A DNA stretch of 64,000 bases from Muricea muricata (Eukaryota > Cnidaria > Anthozoa > Malacalcyonacea > Plexauridae). Every line of letters begins with the position of its first letter. Within the stretch, counting starts at the first letter, position 1. Under the pieces are notes generated by a model that did no database searches, had not been told where the DNA came from, and worked only from the letters and a program-made list of their open reading frames with translations. Position numbers and translations under genes: made by a program. Shown here piece after piece: positions 29,214 through 60,662 of this stretch. The DNA lies in NCBI GenBank assembly GCA_963855995.1, contig OY979718.1:1635501-1699500 (forward strand), written 5' to 3'.

Positions 29214-29222
29214 CGTCGGGTA

Positions 29223-29662
29223 GCAGAAATTTTTTTTGGGATCACTTTGGTTGGGAGCTTTGTAACCGCGCCTACTATAACGCAATAGGAAAACTTCGCC
29301 TAATGTTAACCCTGATTCTAACCCCAACCCAACCGCCTAAACGCCTAACCGTAATTTTATTTTTACCCTAACCCTAACCCTAACCCTAACCCTAACCCTA
29401 ACCTTAATCCTATTCGGGAAAAAAATTGAAAAAAAAGGCAAACCAACAAACGAGACAAAACCAAAAACAGCGCGCACGGGATCGAACCCTAGCCCACAAG
29501 AGCACGGGCAGCGCCTTAGCCGATTGAGCTAACGAAGCTCTACGGATTTTAGCGTTCAAAAATTGTTTTTAACTTACTCCTACCGGCGAAGTTTTCCTAT
29601 TGCGTAATAGTAGGCGCGGTTACAAAGCTCCCAACCAAAGTGATCCCAAAAAAAATATTAGC
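29223..29662. mobile_element. 440-bp MULE-like element carrying a tRNA-like sequence and a telomere-like tract
   Basis: Terminal inverted repeats of about 70 bp start ATTTTTTTTGGGATCACTTT on the left; the right end, 29584-29662, is the complement. A perfect 9-bp direct repeat, CGTCGGGTA, flanks the element (29214-29222 and 29663-29671), as expected for Mutator-like elements. The interior has (CCCTAA)n at 29366-29410 and a tRNA-like sequence at 29471-29540 on the minus strand. There is no transposase, so it is non-autonomous. Confidence 0.85.
29471..29540 (-). repeat. tRNA-like sequence (A and B boxes)
   Basis: Read on the minus strand: A-box-like TTAGCTCAATCGG and a perfect B box GGTTCGATCCC, about the right distance apart for a tRNA gene. 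The D and anticodon stems do not fold cleanly, so this is a degenerate tRNA-derived sequence, not a working tRNA. Downstream on the same strand come T8 and T7 runs and then the GGTTAG tract. Confidence 0.75.
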
Positions 29663-30529
29663 CGTCGGGTAACTTCAAGCGACAAAAGGACCATTTTCCT
29701 TTAGGAATAAAACTTACATTTCCTAAAATGTCCTAAATATCACAAATATGTCAAGTCCCCAAAGGCCATGTGTGGGCTTTAATAGTAGGGATATGAGAAG
29801 TGGTCTACGTGCCGCACTTAGAGTATAACTCGAATTCGAATCCAAACTCGATGTTTCATGATTCCTAATTTTAACACAGTTGTTAACATAAAACTACCTG
29901 CAAAAAAGCAGTCACAAAATAAAAAAGGAAAAGTTAAACAGTTCCTTTAGTAGCAAAAATGATAAGCTTCATAGTTTCAACCAAGATGGCCTGGCGTCAT
30001 GTGAACAAAGAGGTCATGATCTGATTAATAGTGCTGATCGAAAACAGGAGTATTGGCGAGGTTTAGATTTGACTATCATTTAGATTCGACTATCGTTTAC
30101 TATGTGAAGAAGCCGGGTAATAATTCCGTGTTCTCAGTATGGCGAATATAAATCTTAATCCAAGCCCTAATCCTAACCAACGTCTCATTTGTCATGTTTT
30201 AACTTTGATGGATTGATGATTTAAAGATTTGATGATTAATGATTAGATCTAAGGCTTGAATTAATATTTAATAACATCTGTTGTCTCTTGCATGGTAAGG
30301 TAAAAATAATAAAATTTATGTGCTTTAATCAAGCTGAATCTACAAGAAATTCGTAAAATAGCGAGAAAATAAAGAAATAAAATATGCGTGAAATGTGACC
30401 TGCTCCTTTAATGTGAATTTAAAAAATTTAAAACGTTTTTAAATTAAAAACGTAAAACGAGTTTTAATTTTGTTTACTAAACATAAATTTTGGGATCCCT
30501 AATATTAGCTCATTCTTTTTTCTAGATGT

Positions 30530-46700: not shown

Positions 46701-49700
46701 CTTTCAAATACTTCTTCTTTTTTTTGCAACTCTTCTTTATATTTTTTCTCTTCATTTGTAGCATTTTGATCAGACACCATCCTAGCTTCTCTTAACTCTT
46801 CTTCTAGCATTTTACAGTTCTCAGAAACCTTTTGCAACTCTTCATCTTTCATAGAAAGAATATCTTGAAGTTCATTACTAAGTATTGCTTGTGATTTGTT
46901 TAATTCTAACTCATTTTGTAAATCTTGAATTGTTTGATCGCGCCGAGCTATATGCTCTTCTAAATGAGTAACTTTTGACAGAGCATCAAGAAGACTCTGC
47001 ATCTGTGATGTTTCCTTCTCAGCCTCCATGCTCTGAACAGAATCCTGTAGTTTATCGATAACAACTTCTTTAGAATCCACGAGCTGCTGTAGCACCATTG
47101 CTTCATTTTCTAGTTCTTTGACTCTTTCTAATAAAATATTTACAGTTTCTTTATTATTTACAGTCGCTGGTTCAGATTCAGTGTTCTTGGCATCTTCAAG
47201 ATCCTTCACTTTTACTTTCTCCACATCAAGTGCTTTTTGCAGTTCCTAATAAAAATGTGAAAAACAATTAGCATGCTATACATTTTATACTCCACAGTGA
47301 ATAAGTTTTGTAGGAATATTTTATGGCTATAGATTTATACTACAAGAAATAACCTTAGGTCTCATTTGAACGACAACGAAATGCGCGATTACTTTGCTAA
47401 CAAGAATAACTTAACATGTCACCGCGGAATCTTAGAGTCACTGGACGTTTGACGAGCTTTAAAAAAAAGCTGCAGGTAGTATCCGAGCCCCTGCTTGCTT
47501 TATTGGAAATCGCACGCCTAGACGACTGAGCTAACGAGCTTGTTGAAACCATCAAAACAATTTCTATTTACAATAAAACTTCATGTAATCGAGACCAGAG
47601 CAGTCAGGGAACGAGATCAATAATGCTACCGACCATTACAGTCAAATCAGATGTTCTGTTCCCCGTAATATTGCAACATTGCCGTCAATATTGCAATGTT
47701 CATGCGGTAATTGCTCCGAGCAAGTTGCTCCGGAAGTTGCAACGGGGTCAATTTCAAGCAAATTTGTTGATTTGAATATTTTTATTGCATATTTTCTGTG
47801 ATAAAAATACTGCTAAGCAATTAAATATACTGTAAATTTGAGAGATGCAGATATACAAAACCCATAAGAAGTATTTGCTTCATGACTTTAATGTTTTAAG
47901 GATATAATTGCAAGTTCCGGTGCAACTTGCTCGGAGCAATTAGCGCATGAACAATATTGACGGCAATGTTGCAATATTGGAAAAAAGGGGGGGGGGGACA
48001 GAACACCTGATTTGACTATAAAGATGTTACCGACCGTTTACGGTTCCTAAGTAAGCTTCGGCGACTAATCGTCAAAATATGTCAAAATTCTGTGCAAGCA
48101 TGTCATTACTAGTAACTGAATTGGTACTCTTATGACACACACGTAGAACTGGTTCAGTTCTTCAAATACGAAATTCCGCAACTTTGCATGACCCCAAATC
48201 TTTATGCTATCCTATACAAAAAGTGTGGCTACAAAAATGAACTGAATTAAACAAATTAATATGTTTCATGAACGCACAGCAGCAATTAATTTACTTTTTT
48301 CAAATTCTCTACGTATCATGTGATTGTACGAAGCAGTTCGCTAATGGAAACAGACGGTAGTAAATGGGAATGAAAGTGACTGAAATATTCTTCCGTAATT
48401 AATATTACTGTATTCAAAGCACTGATTCGTGATGGAAAATGAGGAATGATCTTACTGCTAACTATACATAGTCGTTCAACAGTTGGCCGATTATTTGAGA
48501 TTAAACTTAAGAAAATTTGTGAGTACACACGATAATCCACAGTATTAGACCTGATGAGATTATCAGCCACAGATATGCTATAAGATTACCTTTATTATCA
48601 TTGACATTGTTTTTATTACTGTTGTTTCACGACTCTAATCAAAGTTATATTTTGTAAGTTGATCTTCCGAATAAATATTTTTACTGTAACTTGTACGCAG
48701 TGCGGGCACTGAGCTACGTCACATTAGCACATTTGCAAGAATTTTTTAAGTAGTTAACTAATCCAATCTGTGAATAAGTCAGTCCCACAAATAAATCCCT
48801 GCTAAACGTACAAAGATTGAGTTCAGGACAAAGGGAATTCCACATATTTGATAGTAATTACCGTTTAAATTAATTGATGGATATTTAACGACTTAGAAGG
48901 GACTGTACGAGTTTTGTGAGAGATTCAATCGTCGTCTTTTCCACCGAAGCAAAATGATTGTTAAAATTCATCCTATAGGATCTTTAGTAAATTGCAGAGT
49001 TTTTGCGGGCCCTCGAGACCACGTAGGAATGAGGTTTTGGATAACTTTCGACACAGTTCTCCAGATTTGGCAATGAATTTCTATGTCTGTCTTCCCAAGG
49101 ATAGGGCATTGGTCAAAAACAGCGCCAATTCCTGCACAAAACACACTAACTGGGTATCGCCGGGCGGTACGCAACATGCACATACTAATTAACTTGAGCG
49201 GTTTGGCATGTTGGATCTTGACCCACAACTCAGAGGTGAAGTCTGCTTTCACGTATTTAGAGAGGGATTTTAGAACCTCAGCCATTAAATTTATACCCAG
49301 ATTGAGACACCCACGGCTGCGCTCTTCTTGTGCCGACAATCCACTCTCCAGTTTATATCCAGCGAAACTGATGAGTTCAACCAAGTTTCGGAACAGTAAA
49401 AATTTCAATGTTATTCTTTTTTAAAAAAATCTCCAACCTCAATAGAATTAGTTCGAGTTTTCAGGCATCAAACATAAAATTGAGCAGGTTTAATACTTTT
49501 TAAAGAAGAGTCATTGTTGGGGGTAGCGAGTGTGTACGTACACTGGTAAGTGGTACAGTGTTCCTTCCACAATGCTTTCTACGCTTCCTAAACATGAAAT
49601 TTAAACAGTTGCATGGAACATTTTTCTCGTAACTTAGTTTACGCATCTTTAGTTCAATTAAAAAATAAAGTTTCAAAAACAAAGCTCAACAATGCAAATA

Positions 49701-53977: not shown

Positions 53978-54425
53978 ACCTTTTAGACAAAATTTTGAAA
54001 AAAATCGAAAGAGGAAAGAATATTACCACAGCTTGAAAGAGCATCCTAAACTCAGTAAAATTGCAAAGCTTGGTTGTAAAATGTTGTAAACTTTACAACA
54101 TTTTACAACCAAACTTTGCAATTTTACTGAGTTTAGGATGCTCTTTTAACACTATAGGAAATATAGCCTTGCGAAGTTGGCAAATTTTCTGTAGTTTTGT
54201 ATTATTCATGAGAAATGAATACCCAGGGTATCAACTGGGTATTATTTTCCACCCATGATACAAATGTATACAAAATTTGCCGAATTCACAAGGCTATATT
54301 TTCCATAGTTTACAACATTTTAAAACCAAACATTGCAATTTTACGAAGTTTAGGATGCTCTTTCAAGCTGTTATAATATTTTTTCCTATTTCAATTTTTT
54401 TTAAAATTTTGTCTAAAAGGCTTAA
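53978..54425. repeat. Multi-hairpin foldback element
   Basis: Outer inverted arms begin TTTAGACAAAATTTT (left) and AAAATTTTGTCTAAAAGG (right). Inside the left arm a near-perfect palindrome with 50-bp half-arms sits at about 54040-54145, around GGTTGTAAAATGTTGTAAA. The centre is a second hairpin (about 54155-54310) with ATAGCCTTGCGAAGTT and its complement. The arm GAGCATCCTAAACT thus occurs three times, once forward and twice reversed. Confidence 0.8.
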
Positions 54426-55539: not shown

Positions 55540-56260
55540 TACCAACTAGACCACTCGTTCATGCTTGTGAAGTGAGAGGTAAATTATTGACTTTAACCAA
55601 TTTTTCACTTCATTTTAAGCCAAAATATTTTTTACAGTCTGCAGCAAGATTTGAGCCAATTAATCTAACTGCATGGTAACATACACTAAAGCACTTACCA
55701 CAAGATTACTCGTTCATGCTTGTGTACTGGGAGGTAAATTATTGACTTTAACCAATTTTTCACTTCATTTTAAGCCAAAACATTTGCAACTGTCTGCAGC
55801 GAGATTTGAGCCAATTAATTTAACTGCATGATAAGATGCACTACAGCACTTACCACCAGATCACTCGTTCATGCTTGTGTCTAAAAGGTAAATTATTGAC
55901 TTTAACCAATTTCTTACTTCATTTTAAGCCAAAATATTTGCGACGGTCTGCAGCGAGATTTGAACTGATCCTTTAACTGTTAATTCACACCAAAGACTGT
56001 ACCACTAGACCACCTGTTCATGCGTGTGCAGTCAGACGTAAAATTCACTTTAACATATTTTTTTGCTTCATTTTACCTGTACCACTACACCACTAATTCA
56101 TGCTTGTGGAATGAATTGTAAACTATTCACTTTAACGGTTTAACCATTTAATTTTTTTCTTCATTTTAAGCCAAAATATTTGCAACTGTTTCCCGCGAGA
56201 TTCGAGCCAATCTAACTGGTAGTTCGCATTAAAGCCTTTACCACTAAACGTTCGGTAAAT
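55540..56260 (-). repeat. Tandem array B of tRNA-like units (~160 bp period)
   Basis: Four to five units share, in order, CACTCGTTCATGCTTGTG, GTAAATTATTGACTTTAACC, CACTTCATTTTAAGCCAAAA, GTCTGCAGCGAGATTTGAGC and ACTTACCACCAGATCACTC. On the minus strand each unit has an A-box-like GATCTGGTGGTAAG and a B-box-like GGCTCAAATCTC. Units are diverged but unmistakable. The family is shared with array A at 37 kb. Confidence 0.85.
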
Positions 56261-56345
56261 ACTACATCCCGGGCGTAGAGAAAGGTTTCAAATATAGTAG
56301 GTTACATATGCAGTATAATTTTAGTTTCTTACGATTTTCGATTCG

Positions 56346-56561
56346 CCGCATTAGCTCAGTGGTCCAGGTCGTGCGCTTTTGACATATATGTTTCGGGTTG
56401 AAGCCCGGTTGCGCTCCTTTCTTTCATACTTTTTTTTAAATTTTTTTCCGTATCTTTTCTTCTTAATATTTTAAAATTGAGTTAGGGTTGAGGTTAGGGT
56501 TAGGATTAGAATTAGGGTTAGGGTTGGGGTTAGGGCTAGGGTTAGGGTTAGGGTTAGGGTC
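56346..56561 (+). repeat. tRNA-like head + T-rich stretch + telomere-like tract
   Basis: tRNA-like part 56346-56418 has the A box TTAGCTCAGTGG and a B-box variant GGGTTGAAGCCC. Then comes T8AAAT7CC (about 56430-56448), and a degenerate GGTTAG array at 56481-56561 with about 12 units. The T-rich piece closely matches that of the element at 29.4 kb read on its minus strand. The middle of the tRNA-like part does not fold as a real tRNA. Confidence 0.75.
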
Positions 56562-56795
56562 ACACATTTTTAAAATTCTGTTTAACGTCATACATTAAAC
56601 ACTTTACAGTCAAGTGTCTTTTTTCGCAACACAACCTAGACATTTAACACAGTCATACTATAATGCCTTTACTATGGCGATAGAACTGCCGGGCGGAAAT
56701 CGAATTCGCAGAATAAATATCAAAGCCCAACATAGTGCTTTTAGTAGAGCCATAAATAGACCAATTTCATGAGGTTATATATGTTTATTAAAAGT

Positions 56796-57463: not shown

Positions 57464-58508
57464 CTAGAAAAGGTTAAGAGGAATCGAGCTGCCTTGGACA
57501 TTAAGAGTAGGTTTGTATTTATTTATGAGGAGGCTCTCGTGTATCATTAACTCATACGAATCAGAACAACAAGAAAGGATTTTGAAATCGTCAAATCCCA
57601 CTTTGTGACCAAAGGCACACGAGTGGGAAAGCACACTGGACTTAGTGGGGTTAGAGGTATGTTTTCCCGTAATAGGAGAGATACCCAAGTGCTCTGATAT
57701 TCTAGTGTGTAAATGGCGTGTGGTTTGACCCACATACGACGCGGAACAGCATCGACACTTAGAAAGGTAAACAACACTAGATCTCAGGTACTTGGGAACT
57801 TTATCCTTAAAAGGGTAAAAAGAAGCGATTCGTCTGGAGGAGCGGAAAACAAATCTAGCACCGACATGAGGGAAAGCGGCATTACAAAGGCGATTGATTT
57901 GGGTGCGGATATGGAGAGAATGTATTCCTGTGAATGGAAGGCAGAAATAGATTATTTTCTTGGGAACCGTCTGGACTGAAGGTTTAGGATCGAAGGTATT
58001 GTCCAAAAATCTACGAGTAATGCGTTCAAACATGTAAGAAGGGAAACCATTGAGTTTGAATAGATTTCTAGCAACTTCAAGTTGGATGTGGAAGTTTTCA
58101 TAGCTCGAGCAGAGATTGAATATGCGATGAATAAGGCAAGATACTGAACATCGTTTGTACGTGAGTGGGATAAAGCTATGGAAGTTGGTGAAAAGACCGG
58201 TAAACGTGGGTTTGCGGTACACAGATGTATTGAATTTACCCTGGGAACGAGATATGTCTATGTCAAGGAACGGCAGTTTCCCGTCACGCTCAACTTCAGA
58301 AGTGAACGCTATATTGGGGTGCTGTTGGTTGAGATATTTAAGGAAAAGAGGTACGTGGTTCAGGGATCGGAAAAGAAGAAAGCAGTCATCAACATATCGT
58401 CGGTAGAGTACAGGCTTGAAAGAAGAAAGACAGTTCTGGAGCCAGATTTGTTCATGGAAGGACATGAATACATTGGCAAAGAGTGGACCTACCACGTTTA
58501 CCAGTTTA
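57464..58508 (-). pseudogene. Penelope-like reverse transcriptase / GIY-YIG protein, 5'-truncated
   Basis: The open minus-strand frame begins, as PLE sequence, near 58508 with NVVGPLFANVFMSFHEQ, the segment just before the catalytic motif. YRRYVDDCFLLF follows, carrying the YxDD catalytic box of reverse transcriptases, then LPFLDIDISR and VYRKPTFTGL, which are Penelope-type landmarks. The C-terminal part has YLSKCRCCSASYVGQTTR, LHTRISEHL and the downstream ESLLINKYKPTLN. These form a GIY-YIG-type endonuclease with the C-rich CxC linker seen in Penelope-like proteins. The N-terminal RT fingers are missing: upstream of 58508 the frame is antisense of the inverted right arm, so the ATG at 58561 is spurious. 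The frame has no internal stop over about 348 codons, so the insertion may be young. Confidence 0.88.
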
Positions 58509-58702
58509 CCTCTAACCCCACTAAGTCCAGTGTGCTTTCCCACTCGTGTGCCTTTGGTCACAAAGTGGACTTTGACGATTTCAAAATCCTTTCTTGTTGT
58601 TCTGATTCGTATGAGTTAATGATACTTGAGAGCCTCCTCATAAATAAATACAAACCTACTCTTAATGTCCAAGGCAGCTCGATTCCTCTTAACCTTTTCT
58701 AG
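58509..58702 (+). pseudogene. Inverted second copy of the Penelope endonuclease end
   Basis: The plus-strand frame reads NPTKSSVLSHSCAFGHKVDF, then ESLLINKYKPTLN to the same stop, differing from the minus-strand copy by a few residues (for example HKVDF against HKVGF, ILES against IHES). It is a fragment, not a gene. Confidence 0.9.
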
Positions 58703-58896: not shown

Positions 58897-59184
58897 GCCT
58901 TTACTGTATTAATATGAGCAATAAAATACAATTGTCATCAATTTCTGATGAATGTGTATGTAGCAACGTGTCGTTGGCGAGGCTATCGACGAAGACGCTG
59001 ATTACATCTGTTATTTCGACCAATGGGAAAAGTGATAGCAGCCCGTAGACCAGCAACACCCTTATCCAGCTTTACATCAATGTATCACCAAAATTTTGGC
59101 ACACTAGAGCCAAGTATTTCCCTTTCAAACCAACATTTCACGCTCTGGAGTCAAAAGTGTCTGCAGTTCCAACAGACGACGTCG

Positions 59185-59545
59185 AGTCTTTAAAAACCGT
59201 AGACGGTCGGTGGCATCATTGATCTTGTTTCCAGACTGCTTTGGTCTAAATGAGTTTTATTGTAAATACACACTGTTTTGACGGTCTTCTGCAAGCGCGT
59301 TGCTAGCTCAGTCGTTTTGGCGTGTTATTTCTAGCACAACAGACAGGAGTTCAAATCCCCGTTGAGGCTTGGTTACTTTTAAAGCTCGTCAAACTTTTTT
59401 CTGAACATATTTCACTTTTTTATGGTTAGGTTTAGGTTTAGGGTTAGGGTCAGGGATTCGATTATTTAAAATTTTAAAACGCAAAATCTAAGTTTAGTCA
59501 GAGTGAGATCAATGATGTTACCGACCATTAACAATGAACTGCACA
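59185..59545 (+). mobile_element. tRNA-like element with GGTCGGT inverted ends and a telomere-like tract
   Basis: Left end ACGGTCGGTGGCATCATTGA and right end TCAATGATGTTACCGACCAT are inverted repeats of about 24 bp. The tRNA-like part 59293-59370 has GCTAGCTCAGTCG (A box) and GAGTTCAAATCCCC (B box). It is followed by T-rich sequence and a degenerate GGTTAG tract at 59424-59455. The same family, without the tract, is at 47.4-47.65 kb. No target duplication was found. Confidence 0.7.
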
Positions 59546-60595: not shown

Positions 60596-60662
60596 GGGGA
60601 TTCGAACTCGCGTGCTTGTCTTTCGAAATCGCCGCTCTGACCACTGCACTAACGAGCCAATG
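60596..60662 (-). repeat. tRNA-like sequence
   Basis: On the minus strand: GGCTCGTTAGTGCAGTGGTC with A-box-like TTAGTGCAGTGG, and a perfect B box GAGTTCGAATCCCC. The anticodon region does not give a clean stem. No T-rich/telomere tail follows. Confidence 0.65.

Follow-up and report, generated by a model that had tools for sequence, protein, structure and literature searches.

MULEs have long TIRs, make duplications of 8–11 bp and have, in plants, captured fragments of host genes, according to the account in PMC6446971, which also describes Rehavkus as having 9-bp duplications and a minisatellite ahead of its 3′ TIR. MER6/MER6A is described in PMC6887750 as a Tc1/Mariner MITE with a V-SINE domain; in the main text of that paper no word starts with 'telomer'. 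Interstitial telomeric sequences of one class may, according to PMC6410037, owe their origin to transposition by mobile elements.

The elements described here resemble non-autonomous MULEs and Pack-MULEs in their TIRs, their 9-bp target duplications and the presence of non-autonomous copies with cargo, but what they carry is a telomere-type tract joined to a tRNA-like unit of pol III type, not fragments of protein genes. As in the published description of MER6, a SINE-type sequence is spread by a DNA transposon; MER6, however, is described as holding a SINE body and tail and no tRNA head (PMC6887750). Internal A and B boxes (with no intact tRNA here) and a simple-repeat stretch downstream are shared with tRNA-derived SINEs, from which our elements differ in having TIRs, a conserved upstream flank and T runs before the repeat. 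Internal TTAGGG tracts are likewise a feature of interstitial telomeric sequences, but in the present case the carrier elements have been identified, and several of them contain the tract as a standard component. One group of elements (end type B, see below) was compared in structure alone with Rehavkus: the combination of 9-bp duplications and a minisatellite given for Rehavkus in PMC6446971 is similar, whereas in type B the arrays are found close to each end and the duplications measure about 8 bp. Among open-licence papers, we found no description of tRNA-like plus TTAGGG cargo in MITEs.

Three copies of the module in the window

The window is the whole stretch of 64,000 nucleotides that was analysed (C3:1635501–1699500), and the genome searched comprises 453 Mb in 74 contigs; L-numbers denote stretches fetched from this genome, and C2 and C3 are contigs. 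At all three loci of the window an A/B-box-like head is followed by a T-rich linker and a GGTTAG tract on one strand (Table 1), and the modules are present at the positions and in the orientation given by the initial annotation. Tracts were searched in the window with a degenerate (TTAGGG)3 pattern allowing up to 4 substitutions. A loose A-box/B-box pattern returned 23 rows in the window, the top two being copy 1 (29478–29531, 1 substitution) and copy 3 (59304–59358, 2 substitutions) and the others having 3–4 substitutions; the head of copy 2 was identified by eye because its B box is mutated. That the heads are intact tRNA genes was ruled out by ARAGORN, which found none within the window, and by Rfam, which gave no tRNA match in the three module heads or in 8 relatives. 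At a relaxed threshold, ARAGORN returned poor cloverleaves in three of the four stretches tried (two families). Rfam matches to microRNA and other models scored under the gathering thresholds. A long hairpin at 54036–54146 has weak matches to several microRNA models below cut-offs and is probably a small inverted-repeat element.

Heads and tracts are also found separately. The window contains a TTAGGG array (280–321) with no tRNA-like head upstream, and tRNA-like heads lacking a tract at 60598–60659 (-) and 47447–47634 (-), the former being 3 substitutions from the A/B pattern with no GGTTAG tract nearby. In a random sample of the genome (20 × 10 kb = 200 kb) there were 2 weak tracts, and the 170 bases preceding them showed no evident head. 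Two further features of the window are a 349-bp unit in two tandem copies (1449–2144, 97% matches) and a broken frame (57464–58615, -) with a GIY-YIG domain (PF01541, 24 bits), part of which recurs inverted near 58500–58700 and which we read as Penelope-like.

Table 1. Positions of the modules, their parts and their carrier elements (window coordinates, or stretches fetched from the genome).
Feature	Position	Strand	Description or basis
c1 element, TIR transposon, carries copy 1	29223–29662	-	440 bp; genome matches, ends, 9-bp duplication
Target-site duplication of c1, left	29214–29222	.	CGTCGGGTA, 9 bp, exact
Target-site duplication of c1, right	29663–29671	.	CGTCGGGTA, 9 bp, exact
TIR arm of c1	29229–29300	+	72 nt, 99% complementary to 29585–29656
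TIR arm of c1, partner	29585–29656	-	partner of 29229–29300
tRNA-like head, copy 1	29478–29540	-	A box TTAGCTCAATCGG, B box GGGTTCGATCCC
T-rich linker, copy 1	29414–29440	-	T8-CAA-T7-CCC, pol III terminator-like
GGTTAG tract, copy 1	29360–29413	-	degenerate (TTAGGG)3 match; internal to c1 element
c2 copy 2 (left TIR, core, head, T-rich linker, tract)	56254–56561	+	87% to c2A consensus over 188 bp
tRNA-like head, copy 2	56346–56416	+	sequence and family comparison
GGTTAG tract, copy 2	56481–56561	+	degenerate (TTAGGG)3 match at 56482–56565
c2 B-type elements	L052–L054, L056–L058, L060–L062, L064, L067, L068		minisatellite arrays and duplications
c3 element carrying copy 3	59184–59531	+	ends approximate; right TIR without outer part
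TIR of window c3 element	59205–59225 / 59506–59526		
tRNA-like head, copy 3	59296–59369	+	sequence, A/B-box pattern
Degenerate GGTTAG tract, copy 3	59420–59455	+	degenerate (TTAGGG)3 match
Second c3-family copy, no GGTTAG tract	47447–48056	-	split by other inverted-repeat element (about 47636–48021)

Ends and target duplications of the c1, c3 and c2 families

When the head of copy 1 was searched in the genome, the best 40 of 42 candidates were scored and had identities of 93–100%. The 20 copies fetched have the same two ends as the window copy, with conserved flanks to either side of head and tract, and in all 21 the tract is internal and followed by a conserved 3′ flank and a TIR. Exact 9-bp target duplications border 19 of these copies (the exceptions are L040 and L047). 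The elements are 434–476 bp long, and their mean pairwise identity of 98.7% marks c1 as a young family; the longest perfect TTAGGG run ranges from 1 to 12 units. For c3, the best 40 of 328 candidates were scored and 20 were fetched. The consensus of this family is 432 bp long, and its tract is a degenerate seed only (GGTTAGGTTTAGGGTTTGGGTCAGGGATT). Both ends were present in 18 copies when the window copy was included; 11 of the 18 have exact 9-bp duplications, and two of the remaining 7 are off by one base. Among the best 40 of 328 candidates, 15 c3-type matches lie about 4.8 kb apart at C3:4549552–4616952, which looks like a tandem array.

The c2 family, to which copy 2 belongs, combines one core with several kinds of ends. 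The best 40 of 295 candidates were scored, 41 matches were listed and 20 stretches were fetched. All 20 contain the head, while a GGTTAG-like stretch was present only in the window copy and in its closest relatives, L049 and L050, where it is short and stands at the position of the tract. The initial annotation had named independent occurrence of head and tract as evidence against its proposal, and such independence is found in part, 18 of the 21 c2 copies having the head without the tract. The likeness between the linkers of copies 1 and 2 (T8-CAA-T7-CC and T8-AAA-T7-CC), previously taken as a sign of shared descent, is real (21 bp, 95%) but is in itself no proof of descent, since L049 and L050 lack T8-AAA-T7-CC.

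The end type designated A is a TIR, and a pattern search located both ends of 6 copies, of which L055, L059, L065 and L066 have exact 9-bp duplications, L049 one of 8 bp and L063 none; the right TIR of the window copy was not found. Type B consists of inverted arrays of a 21-bp minisatellite near both ends. In a test of 12 B-type copies (L067 without right end) that permitted small end shifts, target duplications of at least 8 bp (about 8 bp) were present in 9 of 11, and we therefore regard B as a different carrier. In L063, A-type ends are situated between B-type minisatellites, which suggests nesting, although the complete lack of a target duplication weakens this copy as proof. The core was also encountered twice in the 200-kb random sample, within two further TIR pairs, C (L014) and D (L010), each with an exact 9-bp duplication (ends picked by eye). 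The c2 core is thus common to four end types (A, minisatellite B, C and D), and type C resembles the ends of the F4 family described below.

Genome-wide association of head and tract

A genome-wide search with an A-box pattern (TAGCTCA, 95–125 bases, (TTAGGG)2) gave 68 matches, which were reduced by hand to 57 loci (36 c1, 16 F4, 3 c3-type and 2 other); 55 of the 57 are tRNA-like by eye. With the tract flipped, the same search yielded 12 matches, or 6 loci, one or two of which are also tRNA-like (C2:20018879, C2:55958643), and the patterns read backwards had no match genome-wide in either tract orientation. The earlier claim of recurrence is borne out, and strand and spacing are non-random (57 loci against 6). 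A B-box pattern (GTTCGA, 60–90 bases, GGGTTAGGGTTAG) had 136 matches genome-wide and none backwards, the flipped-tract control being part of the A-box search only. The 100 of the 136 matches that were listed correspond, counted by hand, to at least 69 loci (30 c1, 15 F5, 9 F4, 8 c3-type, 5 F6 and 2 other), which added two families, F5 and F6. Families with the module number three in the A-box search, five in the B-box search and six when c2 is counted, and the independent count by family is small because most c1 loci trace back to a single event.

From the new families, five F4, three F5 and two F6 loci were sampled. TIR pairs and exact 9-bp duplications were present in two copies of each (6 of 6, hand-picked, with ends chosen by eye), and inverted matches of 34–77 nt were found in L094, L095, L096 and L098. 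L089 and L093 contain the F4-type left end only, L092 has neither end, and the right end of L097 is cut. L092, an F4-type module inside contig C3, comprises at least 56 perfect TTAGGG units and runs past the fetched stretch. GGTTAG stands at or near the start of the F5 and F6 element ends, and it opens the left ends of L096, L097, L098 and L099, which in this are like the internal tract.

The carriers are MITE-sized (about 320–475 bp) and mostly have 9-bp target duplications. Across the six families (c1, c2, c3, F4, F5 and F6) the ends differ and the internal order is identical, the tract being present in a minority of c2 only. The earlier statement that copies sit inside different transposons holds for these TIR-bounded families with their different ends, and the notion that the modules might be segmental duplicates of one chance fusion proved too simple. 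In addition, the initial annotation had proposed a SINE with telomeric DNA as its priming site or its fusion partner. The occurrence of a tRNA-like head together with a telomere repeat in the window prompted this proposal and speaks for it, but a SINE ends at its 3′ tail and is directly flanked by duplications, whereas here the tract is internal and, wherever both ends of a c1, c3, F4, F5 or F6 copy are present, the target duplication flanks the TIRs and not the module. These flanks contradict a SINE with a telomeric tail, which was rejected and which we consider highly improbable.

Anatomy and origin of the cassette

T runs of at least five separate the B box from the tract in all 49 tract-bearing copies counted (21 c1, 20 c3, 5 F4 and 3 c2; 18 of 21 c2 and 2 of 22 c3 copies, which have no tract-like stretch, and F5 and F6 are excluded), so that transcription by pol III would be likely to terminate ahead of the tract. 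We infer that the tract is amplified as DNA only, the first T run past the B box being predicted to end any pol III transcript. In five of the six sequences tested, a TATA-like match (5–7 of 7 letters) precedes the B box by 81–86 bp; it is absent from this place in the F5 copy L096, and by eye TATAAATA occupies the place in L095 and L097. The summed score of 35 against a shuffle mean of 28.4 was reached by none of 1000 shuffles, for a motif that was chosen after looking.

These features bear on the idea of an ancient insertion, into one or more TIR elements, of a SINE with telomere repeats as its tail, which has hitch-hiked ever since, the DNA transposon being the live mobile unit and the module having been born as a SINE. 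A precedent for a SINE domain in a MITE is published in the V-SINE domain of MER6 (PMC6887750). The order of head, linker and simple repeat is SINE-like too, but the common c2 core begins well upstream of the head and includes the TATA-like stretch. The transcript of a pol III SINE must reach the tract and does not include an upstream TATA sequence, and both the position of the core and the T runs in 49 of 49 copies are at odds with this. We regard such an origin as unlikely.

Comparisons between families gave different results for the parts of the cassette. The heads of four families are identical at 42–49 of 68–71 aligned positions across families and beat shuffles in every family pair (at most 1 of 300 as good), which is expected of any tRNA-derived stretches. 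In the upstream 60 bp no alignment between families went beyond shuffles. Over the 150 bp downstream, all three pairings of c1, c2L and c3 scored above every one of 300 shuffles, while no excess similarity was observed against the tract-less c2A (shuffles as good: 37 of 300 for c1, 55 of 300 for c3); this loss indicates that the GGTTAG seed drives the downstream match. Such a pattern would also be expected from convergence, with unrelated tRNA-like stretches in several MITE families and GGTTAG tracts that arose independently downstream of them from seeds that expand easily in this genome. The extent of head identity, the GGTTAG at or near the ends of F5 and F6, the c2 copies that have no tract and the tracts that have no head all fit this explanation, but order, strand and spacing are identical in six families, the flipped orientation is rare, and the heads exceed shuffles in all pairs, as far as this last point can count given what any tRNA-derived stretches would do. 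We consider convergence a rather unlikely explanation.

The reading that we favour, with a probability of roughly 0.8, is that non-autonomous TIR DNA transposons, Mutator-like MITEs that share an exchanged pol III-type cassette, carry the module as internal cargo; our confidence is lowered by the failure of the downstream similarity against c2A. Target duplications of exactly 9 bp in c1, c3, c2 A-type and F4–F6 fall within the 8–11 bp of MULEs, and TIRs, which in MULEs are often long, have arms of 72 nt around copy 1 and the 34–77 nt noted for four of the fetched stretches. The designation Mutator-like is made by structure, from the TIRs and the length of the duplications. MULE domain matches (PF10551) in the genome number at least 103 at an E-value of 1e-3 or better among the 150 of 269 candidates that were scored, which attests to domain presence only. 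Under this cargo reading, an ancestral element would have acquired a tRNA-like gene that was preceded by a TATA-like stretch and followed by a GGTTAG seed, and the cassette may have moved between elements by nested insertion followed by loss of the inner ends. Copies would be mobilised in trans by a MULE-type transposase, and replication slippage would have lengthened the tract in c1, in part of F4 and in copy 2, while in c3 it would have remained a degenerate seed.

The putative pol III-type cassette (TATA, A/B boxes and T-run terminator) and the telomere-type DNA might moreover be a selected working part of these transposons, for example by opening chromatin or by recruiting pol III or telomere-binding factors and thereby aiding mobility or targeting. 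A function of this kind would account for the retention of the cassette in six families with different ends and for its passage between them, but we think it quite improbable. Conservation of the A and B boxes does not clearly exceed that of the sequence around them (18 of 275 shifts did as well in c3, 64 of 267 in c2 and 111 of 165 in c1), and this within-family test accordingly lends no support to selection on the boxes or on transcription.

If the module is cargo of Mutator-like elements, DNA transposons would provide a route for seeding telomere-type repeats and pol III promoter-like sequences inside chromosomes, a route that is neither telomerase repair nor SINE retroposition. Because one core occurs with several unrelated end sets, the exchange of cargo between elements can be traced, and transcription of the cassette by pol III, if real, would mean that a DNA transposon carries a promoter of an unusual kind.
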